Origin: Flexistipes sinusarabici DSM 4947
GTDB lineage: Bacteria; Chrysiogenota; Deferribacteres; Deferribacterales; Flexistipitaceae
NCBI RefSeq assembly: GCF_000218625.1
Contig: NC_015672.1
Location: 1 to 64,000 of the forward strand
DNA length: 64,000 nucleotides
Reading direction: 5' to 3'
Part shown: one piece after another, positions 40,079 to 43,462 of the stretch
Layout of the letters: each line of letters starts with the position of its first letter
Position numbering within the stretch: the stretch's first letter is position 1
The notes under the pieces: generated by a model
The model's input: the letters and a program-made list of their open reading frames with translations, nothing else
What the model was told of the DNA's origin: nothing
Database searches by the model: none
Position numbers and translations under genes: made by a program

Positions 40079-40975
40079 TCAACGGTGGCCTCCGCCACCG
40101 CCGTTACCACCCGAACCGGAACCTTCACCGTGACCTCCCATACCCCCGCCGTCACTCATTCCGCCGGTGCCTTGCTGTCCGGAGCCTGACATACCGCCTC
40201 TACTGTCGTTCATTCCATCGGCATGCCCCACTGCGGAAGCGCCTCTGTAACCGGCACCTATACTTTTGGACACATTTTCTGTAAATCTGCCGGCATGGGT
40301 GCTTGAAAAATTTTCTCTGAAACTTTGTCTCATCTGACTCATTTCCTGGTGGGTAAAATTATGCTGCATTGCCTGATTCAAAACTCCATTGATTTGTGAT
40401 GACTGCACTCCCAGTCTGCTCATGGTTTTGGCTGTTTCCGTAACCTCTTTTGCCATTTGAGATATGTTGCGGTTTTGCTGCATATTTTGATTAAGCATAC
40501 TGCCGACTGCCTGGATATCATCTTTTTTCATACCGGCTGCCATAGCTTCTTTCACATTTTCTTCAATCTGCTGCCTTACAGACTTCTTTGATGCAAACTG
40601 AGCTGCAAATTTTGATGCGAACTCCTGCCTTTGAGCCATTTGGTTCAAAGCATGGGTAATCATCTGCCCTCTAACATTTTTTGCTATACCCTCATTTACT
40701 TTATCTGTTAAATCACTGACTGGATATCCACGCTGTTGGTACTCTTCCACCTTGTTAAGGAAATTGCTGACGGTACTTTTGCTGTATCCGTGCTGGTACA
40801 TATTCTGTAATGTTTCAGCAACTTCCCTTGACTCAGCTGCGGCTTGACGCACCTGATTCTGTAGTTCGGCGGGAGTATTGCTTATCAGCTCATCCATCTT
40901 CACTTCCGCGGCAGAGACAAATGTATTCAATACTATGCTCAGTAGAAAAGCAGCTGTTATTGTTATTTTGTTCAT
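40079..40975 (-). CDS. Secreted Gly/Met-rich protein, function unknown (predicted ECF target)
   Basis: The 298-residue protein has a signal peptide (about 1-22, cleavage after VSA). The middle (about 25-220) is mostly helical and rich in Gln, Met and Ala, with recurring short helices (NQMAQRQ, MLNQNMQQN, VLNQAMQHN). The last 70 residues are Gly/Ser/Met-rich low complexity ending GGNGGGGGHR. I do not recognise a family. AGGAGG precedes the start. An ECF-type promoter motif lies just upstream, at the end of the lipoprotein gene before it, so it can be transcribed with or apart from the sigma operon. Confidence 0.75.
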   Translation of the reverse strand: MNKITITAAFLLSIVLNTFVSAAEVKMDELISNTPAELQNQVRQAAAESREVAETLQNMYQHGYSKSTVSNFLNKVEEYQQRGYPVSDLTDKVNEGIAKNVRGQMITHALNQMAQRQEFASKFAAQFASKKSVRQQIEENVKEAMAAGMKKDDIQAVGSMLNQNMQQNRNISQMAKEVTETAKTMSRLGVQSSQINGVLNQAMQHNFTHQEMSQMRQSFRENFSSTHAGRFTENVSKSIGAGYRGASAVGHADGMNDSRGGMSGSGQQGTGGMSDGGGMGGHGEGSGSGGNGGGGGHR

Positions 40976-41006
40976 TTTGCTTCCTCCTATAACCTTTTAA
41001 ATGTAA

Positions 41007-41032
41007 AACGGATCAACGGTGCTTTGGTTACA
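41007..41032 (-). promoter_or_regulatory. ECF-type promoter motif upstream of the Gly/Met-rich gene
   Basis: On the minus strand: TGTAAC (41032-41027), 16 bases, CGTT (41010-41007), about 32 bases before the start codon. It has the same hexamer, spacing and -10 core as the two motifs near 42610-42676. Confidence 0.65.
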
Positions 41033-41362
41033 TTAAAATTCCAGAATACATAATTTACCGCCAAATTCGTCTTTAATTTTCATCATGCATTCAGGAAGAT
41101 ATACCTTCTCGTTCACTTTATAAAAAAACTTTATTTCTTCCACATTTGCCGGTTTATCTAAGGTATATATCCAGTACCCATCACTCTTTTTGAAATGACT
41201 GCCGGCATAATTGTTTATGTCCGAATAGAAAATGACTTTATCTGCACCATTTCCATTGTAATAAAACGAAAGGGAGTCTTCCGACTGCTTGACATAATGC
41301 CTTGAGCATGCTGTTACTGCTAAAAAAAGTATAATAATTGTGCCAACTTTAAATTTTATCAT
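41033..41362 (-). CDS. Small lipoprotein in the ECF sigma operon
   Basis: The 109-residue protein has a lipobox (AVTAC, Cys near 19), so it is probably membrane-anchored in the periplasm. The mature part, with FYYNGNGADKVIFYSDI, YWIYTLD and EIKFFYKVNEKVYLPE, has the strand pattern of a small beta-sandwich. It resembles in outline the CBM48-like domain of the gene upstream. I recognise no named family. The ATG overlaps the anti-sigma-like gene stop. Confidence 0.75.
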   Translation of the reverse strand: MIKFKVGTIIILFLAVTACSRHYVKQSEDSLSFYYNGNGADKVIFYSDINNYAGSHFKKSDGYWIYTLDKPANVEEIKFFYKVNEKVYLPECMMKIKDEFGGKLCILEF

Positions 41363-41928
41363 GCATTAACCTTCAATATACTGTTTTTGTTGCCGAATCC
41401 GTCTTCTACTTTATATATTGAAGTAGGATCAGCAACAACTTTTTTGTCGTTGATCAGATAAAAATATTTGTATTCACCGGGCTTGAGTTTTACTTCAGCT
41501 TCCCAGTATCCGCTCTGACTTACTTTATTTAATTTTAACGGCTTCCAGTCGGTAAATTCCCCGGATATCTCCACTTTTTCAGCTTCCGGCTTGTATATTA
41601 CAAATCTGTAACTCACAAATTTCTCTGCTTTTTGAGTAGCCGGTTGATTACTGAAAATACTCAAGGCAAAAATAATGATTATAGAAGCGGCAAGCAGTTG
41701 TGTGAAGCGTGTGAGATTTTTATAAGACAGTGTCTTTTTTGCTTTCGGAATATTCAGACGGGGTGTTTCAATTTCCGAAACCTTGTTTTTCATTACCATC
41801 TCAAAATCAAGCGAGGATATTGTTTCTTCGTAAAACTCTTCCTCATTGTGCACATTTTCCACAAACAGTTTTTTCTCTCTTAAATCAAGCTCATTGTCTA
41901 TAAATTGGGAAATTAAAAACTCCTTCAT
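41359..41928 (-). CDS. Anti-sigma-factor-like membrane protein with C-terminal CBM48-like (isoamylase early set) domain
   Basis: The 189-residue protein has a cytoplasmic acidic N-terminus (1-70, ISQFIDNELDLREKK as in zinc-less anti-sigma domains), one membrane segment (about 76-93) and an outside domain. The outside domain (about 105-187) has the AMPK-beta/CBM48 pattern: VEISGEFTDWKPLKLNKV, GYWEAEVKLKPGEYKYFYLIND and a final VADPTS. Position right after an ECF sigma gene and the topology suggest an anti-sigma factor. The outer beta-sandwich is then a sensor or binding module. No glycan ligand can be claimed from sequence. Confidence 0.8.
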   Translation of the reverse strand: MKEFLISQFIDNELDLREKKLFVENVHNEEEFYEETISSLDFEMVMKNKVSEIETPRLNIPKAKKTLSYKNLTRFTQLLAASIIIIFALSIFSNQPATQKAEKFVSYRFVIYKPEAEKVEISGEFTDWKPLKLNKVSQSGYWEAEVKLKPGEYKYFYLINDKKVVADPTSIYKVEDGFGNKNSILKVNA

Positions 41929-41930
41929 AA

Positions 41931-42392
41931 CTAAACCTCCTGGAAGTGTTTTTTCAGAGTTTTCCTGGCTCTGTGTATTATAACCTTTATATTAGCTTCG
42001 GAATGCCCGGTTATTTCGGCGATTTCCCTGTATTTCATATCATTAATGATTTTAAGGGTGAAAATATGCCTCGTTTCATCGTCCAGCTTTGCAAGCATCT
42101 TTTCAAGGACATCTTCCTCTTTGGGCGATGATACGTTATTGTGTTCATCCTTAAAGGAGGACAAAAAGTCCTGCTCCACATATATCTCTTTTTTTTTGCG
42201 TTTTGTATCCAGAAAAGCGTTTCTGCCTATTTTGTATAACAGTCCTTTGTTTGGGTTATCCTGGTATTTTTGATATATTCTGAAGTAACTTTCCTGGAAT
42301 ATGTCACTGGCTGTTTCATAGTCACTGCAGAGATAATACAGATATTTGAAAAAACCGTCTTTGGTTTCCGAGTAAAATTTATCAAAAGTCAT
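41931..42392 (-). CDS. RNA polymerase sigma factor, ECF subfamily
   Basis: This 153-residue protein has sigma region 2 (YLCSDYETASDIFQESYFRIYQKY split around DxFQES, about 17-40) and region 4 (MKYREIAEITGHSEANIKVIIHRARKTLK, about 118-146), with no region 1 or 3, as in ECF factors. The next gene, 2 bases downstream, is a membrane anti-sigma-like protein. A TGTAAC-N16-CGTC motif upstream on this strand suggests autoregulation with a leader of roughly 215 bases. Confidence 0.92.
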   Translation of the reverse strand: MTFDKFYSETKDGFFKYLYYLCSDYETASDIFQESYFRIYQKYQDNPNKGLLYKIGRNAFLDTKRKKKEIYVEQDFLSSFKDEHNNVSSPKEEDVLEKMLAKLDDETRHIFTLKIINDMKYREIAEITGHSEANIKVIIHRARKTLKKHFQEV

Positions 42393-42496
42393 ATATTCTC
42401 GCTCATTGTTTTAATATAGCCGTATATTTTAATTTACCAATAAAATTTCTGTATCTCTCTTTGAGACATTTGAATAATGTATTCTTATAAATTTTA

Positions 42497-42581
42497 CCAC
42501 CCCTTAATCCCCTCCTAACTCTTTGATAGGAGGGGAGATAAAGCTCATCCCCTAAGTTAGGGGAGGTTGGATGAGGTATTA
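42497..42581. repeat. Palindromic CCCCT-type repeat in the sigma operon leader
   Basis: Two hairpins occur back to back: CCCCTCCTA / TAGGAGGGG with a 9-base loop (42510-42536 region), and CCCCTAA-G-TTAGGGG within CTCATCC / GGATGAG arms (42545-42576 region). It resembles intergenic palindromes of the same wording seen in many unrelated genomes. It lies in the predicted untranslated leader of the ECF operon. Confidence 0.65.
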
Positions 42582-42609
42582 AGCTCCCCATCTTTGTATT
42601 CAGGTATAA

Positions 42610-42635
42610 GACGTGTGAGCAATAAAAAAGTTACA
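42610..42635 (-). promoter_or_regulatory. ECF-type promoter motif for the sigma factor operon
   Basis: On the minus strand: TGTAAC (42635-42630), 16 bases, CGTC (42613-42610). It points toward the sigma gene and lies back to back with the motif at 42651. Confidence 0.6.
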
Positions 42636-42650
42636 TTCTGATAAAAAATT

Positions 42651-42676
42651 TGTAACGTTTCTGTTTTTCTTTCGTT
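42651..42676 (+). promoter_or_regulatory. ECF-type promoter motif for the divergent lipoprotein
   Basis: TGTAAC (42651-42656), 16 bases, CGTT (42673-42676), 31 bases upstream of the lipoprotein start at 42707. Its hexamer and spacing match the other two motifs. Confidence 0.65.
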
Positions 42677-42706
42677 CAGTACACAAGAAAAAACAAGGAG
42701 GCAGTA

Positions 42707-43462
42707 ATGAAATATTTTAAACAACTTATTTTAGGGATTGCAACAGTTCTGTTATTGTTTACGCTTTCTGCATGTGGCAGCAGTTCTTCAGACAGCACGG
42801 GGGCAACTGCGGATTCATCTTTATCCGGTGTGGTAGTGGACGGATATCTGGATGGCGCTAAAGTATTCCTCGACTGTAATAACAATCTTGAACAAGATTA
42901 CAATGAAGTTACTGTGGATTGGACAGATGAAAACGGCAATTATTCTTTAAGTTTACCTGACAATGCATCCCAATGTGCAGTTGTGGCACTGGGGATTGCT
43001 AATCAAACTTATGAGCATTTTGACAACGGTACTTCAGAGATGCTTAGAAATAATCTGACAATGGTATCTATGGACAACGATTCATACAGGGTAATCTCAC
43101 CTTTTACATCGCTTCACTGGTACTATATGAATAATGACAATATGACCTTTGAAGAGGCGAGAAACCGGGTAATGCAGGAGCTTGGCCTTCCTTCCGGCAA
43201 TGCAGTCTTTGAGGATTTTGTGGCCAGAGCAAGAAATAATTCATCATACAGGAATATGGTGCAGACGTCTCTTAGAATGGGTAAATATATGGGATATTAT
43301 TGCAGTCAGGACAATTCCACGGACAATATGACTGTAAAAATGAGAAATGCTTTCAGATATATGCATCAGAATATAGGGATGGACAATTTCACAGATAGTG
43401 ATATCCAGCCAGGCGGAATGGATGAGCGTTTTCCCGTGAGAATGGGAAATATGCAACAATAA
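42707..43462 (+). CDS. Secreted lipoprotein, function unknown (predicted ECF target)
   Basis: The 251-residue protein has a clear lipoprotein signal (lipobox LSAC, Cys near 23) and a Ser-rich spacer. Residues 38-85 (SGVVVDGYLDGAKVFLDCNN through ENGNYSLSLP) look like a carboxypeptidase-regulatory/SdrD-type beta domain. The rest is helical, Asn- and Met-rich, ending MRMGNMQQ-like; I recognise no family there. AAGGAGG lies 7 bases before the ATG. It has its own ECF-type promoter motif and a strong terminator. Confidence 0.82.
   Translation: MKYFKQLILGIATVLLLFTLSACGSSSSDSTGATADSSLSGVVVDGYLDGAKVFLDCNNNLEQDYNEVTVDWTDENGNYSLSLPDNASQCAVVALGIANQTYEHFDNGTSEMLRNNLTMVSMDNDSYRVISPFTSLHWYYMNNDNMTFEEARNRVMQELGLPSGNAVFEDFVARARNNSSYRNMVQTSLRMGKYMGYYCSQDNSTDNMTVKMRNAFRYMHQNIGMDNFTDSDIQPGGMDERFPVRMGNMQQ

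Follow-up and report, generated by a model that had tools for sequence, protein, structure and literature searches.

A small, probably autoregulated ECF sigma module with a CBM48-type membrane partner and glycine-rich secreted products in Flexistipes sinusarabici

We analysed a group of five genes in a 64,000-nucleotide window, the first 64 kb of the single-contig, 2,526,590-bp genome of Flexistipes sinusarabici, a member of the Deferribacteraceae whose strain MAS10T comes from Red Sea brines (PMC3236037). The genes encode an extracytoplasmic function (ECF) sigma factor, a putative membrane anti-sigma factor with an outer domain of the CBM48/AMPK type, a 109-aa lipoprotein, a secreted 298-aa protein and a divergent 251-aa lipoprotein (Table 1). 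Together they are probably an ECF sigma module that is compact, regulates itself and has a very small set of targets, and that would build and monitor an extracytoplasmic glycine-rich layer. This reading is drawn from sequence, namely from gene order, predicted folds, the promoter, the composition of the regulon and its conservation. Binding of the sigma factor by the anti-sigma factor, its release and a feedback would be parts of the same module, and what the signal and the layer might be can be proposed only tentatively.

A shared promoter at the locus and elsewhere in the genome

The original prediction had placed three promoter-like elements of the form TGTAAC-N16-CGTY before genes of this group, and all three were found where it had put them, with the same hexamer and a spacer of exactly 16 bases. 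They were the only exact matches in the window, against 0.14 expected, and none of 100 dinucleotide shuffles reached three. The distance from the end of the CGTT or CGTC element to the start codon was 31 nt for the 298-aa gene, 30 nt for the divergent lipoprotein gene and 217 nt for the sigma factor gene. The sigma leader is this long because a repeat of ~138 bp, similar to miniature inverted-repeat transposable elements, has entered the stretch from the promoter to the sigma gene. The genome carries about 20 more copies of this repeat, either full or partial, and both sister genomes (G001 and G002) have an empty site and a sigma leader of ~80 nt, which places the insertion in this strain only. 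An open reading frame (ORF) of 62 aa at 42403-42591 lies in the inserted repeat and was rejected as spurious.

A scan of the whole genome (2.53 Mb) did not yield the excess of motifs that had been anticipated, since six sites were found against seven for the reversed pattern, which is chance density. The number of loose-motif sites in the genome was therefore rejected as proof; this number alone cannot carry the claim of a regulon, which is carried instead by position and conservation. The same search in G001 returned four sites, three at the locus and one orthologous to a site at 977758 in F. sinusarabici, while G002 (88% complete) contained the three locus sites and one unrelated site. Unlinked to the locus, the site at 977758 is a predicted promoter, followed at a distance of 31 nt by the gene for a glycine-rich secreted protein of 103 aa, and homologues of this protein are encoded by the first gene of the sigma operon in other families of the order. 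Thus, the promoter pattern of the locus finds elsewhere in the genome the gene which relatives carry inside the operon. We predict that the conserved regulon in the genus comprises four promoters. The description of the locus as a self-contained regulon was supported for the sigma factor, its putative membrane anti-sigma factor and the shared ECF promoter, but too narrow, as the regulon extends to an unlinked glycine-rich gene with the same conserved promoter. The remaining motif sites at 452083 and 629453 are absent from the sites found in the sister genomes, and were taken as chance occurrences.

The sigma factor, its membrane partner and the secreted proteins

Profile searches agreed with the earlier gene calls. 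The sigma factor matched Pfam Sigma70_r4_2 (E = 3e-14) and Sigma70_r2 (E = 4.6e-6), as well as the NCBIfam sigma70-ECF model above cut-off. The protein is small and has regions 2 and 4 but not regions 1.1 and 3, as is the case for ECF (group IV sigma-70) factors, and a group number for it may already exist in the 2021 ECF re-classification.

The anti-sigma factor is predicted to have a cytoplasmic N-terminus, one transmembrane segment at residues ~75-93 by hydropathy and an extracytoplasmic CBM48/AMPK-type domain at residues ~102-188. The outer domain matched AMPK1_CBM (E = 1.7e-9) and CBM_48 (E = 1e-7), both above the Pfam cut-off, and the solved carbohydrate-binding modules (CBMs) of AMPK beta in the PDB (E = 2e-12). 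An AMPK1_CBM/CBM_48 match at E <= 0.01 was present in all 22 anti-sigma relatives, which bears out the proposal of a CBM48-fold domain on the outer side of this protein. Gene order and position, length, the topology with a single transmembrane segment and weak similarity to zf-HC2 suggest its role as an anti-sigma factor. The glycan contacts of AMPK beta, which we take to be W100, K126, W133 and N150, are kept in part, and the equivalents of W100 and N150 (W128 and N182) are invariant in the anti-sigma alignment.

The gene for the 109-aa lipoprotein shares 4 bases with the anti-sigma gene, at the end of the latter. The Pfam scan gave no credible match for this protein. Comparison of its family (~107 aa) with the anti-sigma family by hhalign, however, gave a probability of 98.8 and an E value of 4.5e-17. 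The top 45 Foldseek PDB hits of its AlphaFold2 (AF2) model (predicted local distance difference test score, pLDDT, 87.7) were AMPK beta CBMs, with a Foldseek probability of 1.00 and a TM-score (TMt) of 0.82 for 1z0m. Judged by profile comparison and modelling, the lipoprotein has the CBM48 fold and is paralogous to the outer domain of the anti-sigma factor, a relationship that is a new finding here. Besides the lipobox cysteine, C105 is invariant and C92 is present in at least 90% of 51 sequences. These residues, located near the DP and NS positions of the anti-sigma domain, likely form a disulfide.

The AF2 model of the 298-aa protein (pLDDT 86.2) shows an all-alpha repeat body and a disordered glycine-rich tail. 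No relative was found in Pfam or the PDB, and Foldseek returned none at E <= 0.001. The best VIA-align match was a designed helical repeat (Z = 11.1), which is below the level meaningful for helical repeats, and hence no function can be read from this match. Pfam and NCBIfam hits to GNAT, DUF445 or an IS256 fragment were below cut-off and inconsistent between members, and were not accepted. The label 'Gly/Met-rich' given earlier to the protein is fair for this strain (13% G, 6% M), but the enrichment in methionine is not conserved in relatives. A second copy of the gene is present at ~628046-629060 on the minus strand, with a TGTAAC-N17-CGTT site in front of it; a frame change close to a tandem repeat of the GATAGA type divides this copy, which may represent a decayed gene or a length-variable switch.

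Full-length homologues of the divergent 251-aa lipoprotein were found only within the genus, and by this distribution the protein is a genus-level addition to the predicted regulon. A copy with 60% identity is present elsewhere in G001, with no promoter motif of this kind (TGTAAC-N16-CGTY) in the stretch read.

Table 1. Features of the sigma locus, with positions in the window
Feature	Position	Strand	Evidence
ECF sigma factor, 153 aa, regions 2 and 4 only	41931..42392	-	Pfam, NCBIfam; conserved in the order
Putative membrane anti-sigma factor, 189 aa	41359..41928	-	AMPK1_CBM/CBM_48 and hydropathy
Lipoprotein, 109 aa, predicted CBM48-fold paralogue of the anti-sigma outer domain, C92/C105 pair	41033..41362	-	hhalign, AF2, Foldseek
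Secreted 298-aa protein, all-alpha repeat body and disordered Gly-rich tail	40079..40975	-	AF2; conserved family
Divergent 251-aa lipoprotein, predicted regulon member in the genus only	42707..43462	+	Promoter kept in both sister genomes
Predicted ECF promoter of the sigma operon, TGTAAC-N16-CGTC	42610..42635	-	Kept in sister genomes G001 and G002
Predicted ECF promoter of the divergent lipoprotein gene, TGTAAC-N16-CGTT	42651..42676	+	Kept in sister genomes G001 and G002
Predicted internal ECF promoter of the 298-aa gene, TGTAAC-N16-CGTT	41007..41032	-	Same position in many Desulfobacterota loci
Repeat insertion in the sigma leader, 89-bp core 42490-42578	42444..42590 (borders approximate)	.	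~20 further copies

Conservation in Deferribacterota and Desulfobacterota

Comparison of the locus across Deferribacterota showed that gene order and motif are conserved, as the original prediction had expected, and the same promoter was found across two phyla. The anti-sigma factor was detected at E < 1e-30 in 22 genomes of the order, where the usual gene order is (glycine-rich protein), sigma factor, anti-sigma factor, lipoprotein and all-alpha protein. The extended motif TGTAACC-N15-CGTTAT occurred in 16 of the 46 genomes of the order, once in each, with 14 of the sites at the sigma operon, and the reversed control gave none. System and motif also co-occurred, the motif being present in 15 of 22 genomes with the system against 1 of 24 without it (Fisher p = 5e-6). 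A genome lacking the system has the site G037:C23:17700, which lies opposite a long open frame and was taken as chance.

When GTDB genomes were searched with the profile of the anti-sigma factor, 385 relatives were identified, and the best 80 were mostly from Desulfobacterota. Matches at E < 1e-50 were found in ~15 (5%) of 297 evenly sampled genomes of the phylum of Desulfosarcina. We compiled 99 loci, a set drawn from two collections in which a few genomes are counted twice; sigma and anti-sigma genes were present in all 99, a separate lipoprotein gene in 91 and the gene for the all-alpha protein in 92. The 79 GTDB loci, a set that leaves out the sister strain, contained TGTAAC-N16-CGTT at 121 sites in 71 loci, whereas spacers of 14, 15, 17 and 18 bases gave one site each, the reversed pattern gave three and a first-order Markov model a mean of 0.7. 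Preferences for CTTT after the -35 element and ATA after the -10 element were seen that the search had not imposed. Genes preceded by a site include the sigma gene, the all-alpha gene, whose site often extends over the lipoprotein gene's end, and glycine-rich genes, which are often divergent. In ten Desulfobacterota genomes (3.8-7.3 Mb) the strict pattern occurred 18 times, with no occurrence of the reversed one, and some of the unlinked sites precede further glycine-rich proteins. Judged by this conserved AAC/CGT promoter, the sigma operon is predicted to be autoregulated in members of both phyla.

An ORF for a glycine-rich, secreted-type protein was found behind 43 of 139 sites, a filtered tally from which copies of the all-alpha gene had been taken out, as compared to 127 of 4000 random positions (p = 7e-28). 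These proteins are ~70-260 aa long, with starts resembling signal peptides and low-complexity sequences containing repeats such as GPGDGTGNxGxGPxDGTGYG or GPGAGPGAG; some have Q/H/Y-rich tails. Four of them were searched against NCBIfam and gave no match. The recurrent output of the predicted regulon is thus a low-complexity glycine-rich secreted protein, which is a second new finding of this analysis.

Several glycine-rich proteins (at L092 +6984, L097 -4403, L122 +7106, L036 -7079 and L052 +4509) end in tracts of the QYQYQHQHQ or QTQTQTQ type, which resemble prion- or silk-like assembling sequences. In two Desulfopila genomes (L095, minus strand, 6295; L132, minus strand, 4243) the promoter is also present before a gene for a ~205-aa, PAS-like, cysteine-containing protein of regulator type.

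Proposed mechanism, alternatives and related systems

In the mechanism that we propose, the resting anti-sigma factor would hold the sigma factor at the inner membrane, with its CBM48/AMPK-type domain outside the cytoplasm beside the lipoprotein of the same fold. An extracytoplasmic signal acting on this pair would release the sigma factor, and the freed protein would direct RNA polymerase to TGTAACCTTT-N12-CGTTATA promoters. Two to five promoters would be served in this way, driving the sigma operon itself, the gene for the all-alpha secreted protein and at least one gene for a glycine-rich secreted protein of low complexity. As one of the induced products, the lipoprotein would probably complete a feedback loop. 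The envelope response that the original prediction had proposed, with the outer domain as sensor, is one possible description of this. The purpose would likely be the building and monitoring of a glycine-rich, perhaps glycan-associated, extracytoplasmic layer. A bolder extension is that the system is a new class of sigma signalling, in which a CBM48 anti-sigma factor and a cysteine-paired CBM48 lipoprotein jointly read a silk-like glycine-rich layer and tune its production, as a self-monitoring matrix system of Deferribacterota and Desulfobacterota; as a whole, we hold this to be conceivable but doubtful.

A number of observations weigh against the proposed module. The N-terminus of the anti-sigma factor (consensus MKDYLISMFIDNELDLDEK) has only weak zf-HC2 similarity, in 11 of 22 relatives and with a best E value of 0.0045, and neither an HxxxCxxC zinc motif in the alignment nor a PDB match was found for it. 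Class I anti-sigma factors share a homologous anti-sigma domain (ASDI), often with this zinc motif. In the outer domain, equivalents of AMPK K126 and of the second tryptophan, W133, are lost while those of W100 and N150 are kept, so that the domain may bind sugar or may have lost this ability. Families f2 and f7 keep the -35 TGTAACCTTT, but their -10 is often AGTT, GGTT or similar and not CGTT. This variation was seen upstream of the glycine-rich gene at loci L035, L037, L038, L040, L041 and L047, and L035 shows a CGTT -10 with a 17-base spacer; the -10 variants suggest drift of -10 recognition. Finally, the loci were picked by similarity of the anti-sigma factor and are mutually related, so that the counts do not represent independent events.

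The -35 element and the output recall ECF16 sigma factors, which use the promoter (T/C)GTAAC-N17-CGAA and control a regulon with a methionine-rich secreted peptide and msrPQ (PMC8315932). BcrS/AbcS of Brucella and SigF/MrpX of Azospira have the -35 TGTAACCTTTT in common with the system described here, and also autoregulation, which is predicted for the latter, and a regulon of very small size that includes a low-complexity, small secreted protein. At the BcrS sites of Brucella the -35 (TGTAACCTTTTT; PMC8315932) differs hardly at all from the one found here. The locus could, by analogy, mediate a response to oxidants (hypochlorite or methionine oxidation), with a sacrificial methionine-rich protein and repair by methionine sulfoxide reductase. 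The methionine content of the 298-aa protein in this strain would fit such a role, as would a gene for MsrA with a signal peptide (~978242-978853), which lies ~135 bp behind the glycine-rich gene, likewise in G001, and the presence of msrA near the operon, though not generally, in Seleniivibrio-type genomes (L043, L045, L050). However, methionine makes up ~2-4% in those relatives from Desulfobacterota that were examined, a scan of 103 loci detected an msrA-type motif in just 7, of which two repeat others, and no msr gene stands directly behind the promoters. The ECF16 consensus of N17 and CGAA also differs from the N16 and CGTT seen here. We therefore dropped the oxidant response as the principal interpretation, as the -10, the spacer, methionine conservation and linkage to msrA all fail, and regard it as improbable. 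The CBM48 anti-sigma factor, a glycine-rich rather than methionine-rich output and the lack of an msrPQ operon further distinguish this system from ECF16.

Sensing of a storage glucan, in which the CBM48 domain would inform the sigma factor about glycogen or a different alpha-glucan, is suggested by the AMPK1_CBM/CBM_48 family of the outer domain and by one genus (g7) in which genes for glycogen synthase and a GH57-type glucan enzyme adjoin the operon (L037, 8089-11816; L038, 649-4364). Nevertheless, these neighbours were seen in this genus only, no glucan gene stands behind the promoters, and the topology places the domain on the extracytoplasmic side, which is not a site of glycogen storage. 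Moreover, two of the four assumed AMPK contacts are lost, and the paralogous lipoprotein also lacks the AMPK-type stacking tryptophan. This alternative thus appears unlikely. A third alternative, in which another sigma factor uses the motif, or the motif arose by chance, and the locus does not regulate itself as a unit, is highly improbable. The chance density of the loose pattern would allow this. Against it stand the strict spacing seen in two phyla at many loci, the linkage to the sigma operon, the co-occurrence with the system, the conservation of exactly the four regulon sites in G001 and the presence of just five Sigma70_r2 proteins in the genome.

The proposed module, with its own promoter and a glycine-rich output, resembles receptor-type ECF pairs such as sigmaV-RsiV, in which RsiV is the receptor for lysozyme (PMC5014341). 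Common to both are a two-region sigma factor, an adjacent anti-sigma factor with a single transmembrane segment and an extracytoplasmic domain, and AAC/CGT autoregulation, which is predicted for the system described here. The system described here differs in its CBM48/AMPK-type outer domain, in a separate lipoprotein gene of the same fold, in a tiny set of targets (glycine-rich and all-alpha secreted proteins) and in an anti-sigma N-terminus without the zinc motif. The glycogen-binding domain of AMPK beta shares fold and sequence with the outer domain of the anti-sigma factor, and fold with the lipoprotein; unlike in AMPK beta, there is no attached enzyme or kinase, the glycan contacts are partly missing and the lipoprotein has a cysteine pair. 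In the openly licensed literature, we found no paper on CBM48 or isoamylase-type anti-sigma factors, nor one on a matching regulon. ECF sigma factors with receptor-type anti-sigma factors are known, while the pairing of a CBM48 anti-sigma factor with a CBM48 lipoprotein, the promoter code and the glycine-rich regulon seem to be undescribed.

Taken together, these results describe a widespread sigma/anti-sigma system tied to a promoter code and two to five target genes, in two phyla of anaerobes for which few genetic tools exist, and the regulon is small enough for complete testing. The sigma factor and its promoter would form a very specific pair, and could possibly serve as an orthogonal switch. 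The system points to silk-like glycine-rich secreted proteins in bacteria, for which we found no curated family here, and would reveal a role of CBM48 folds outside carbohydrate enzymes and AMPK.

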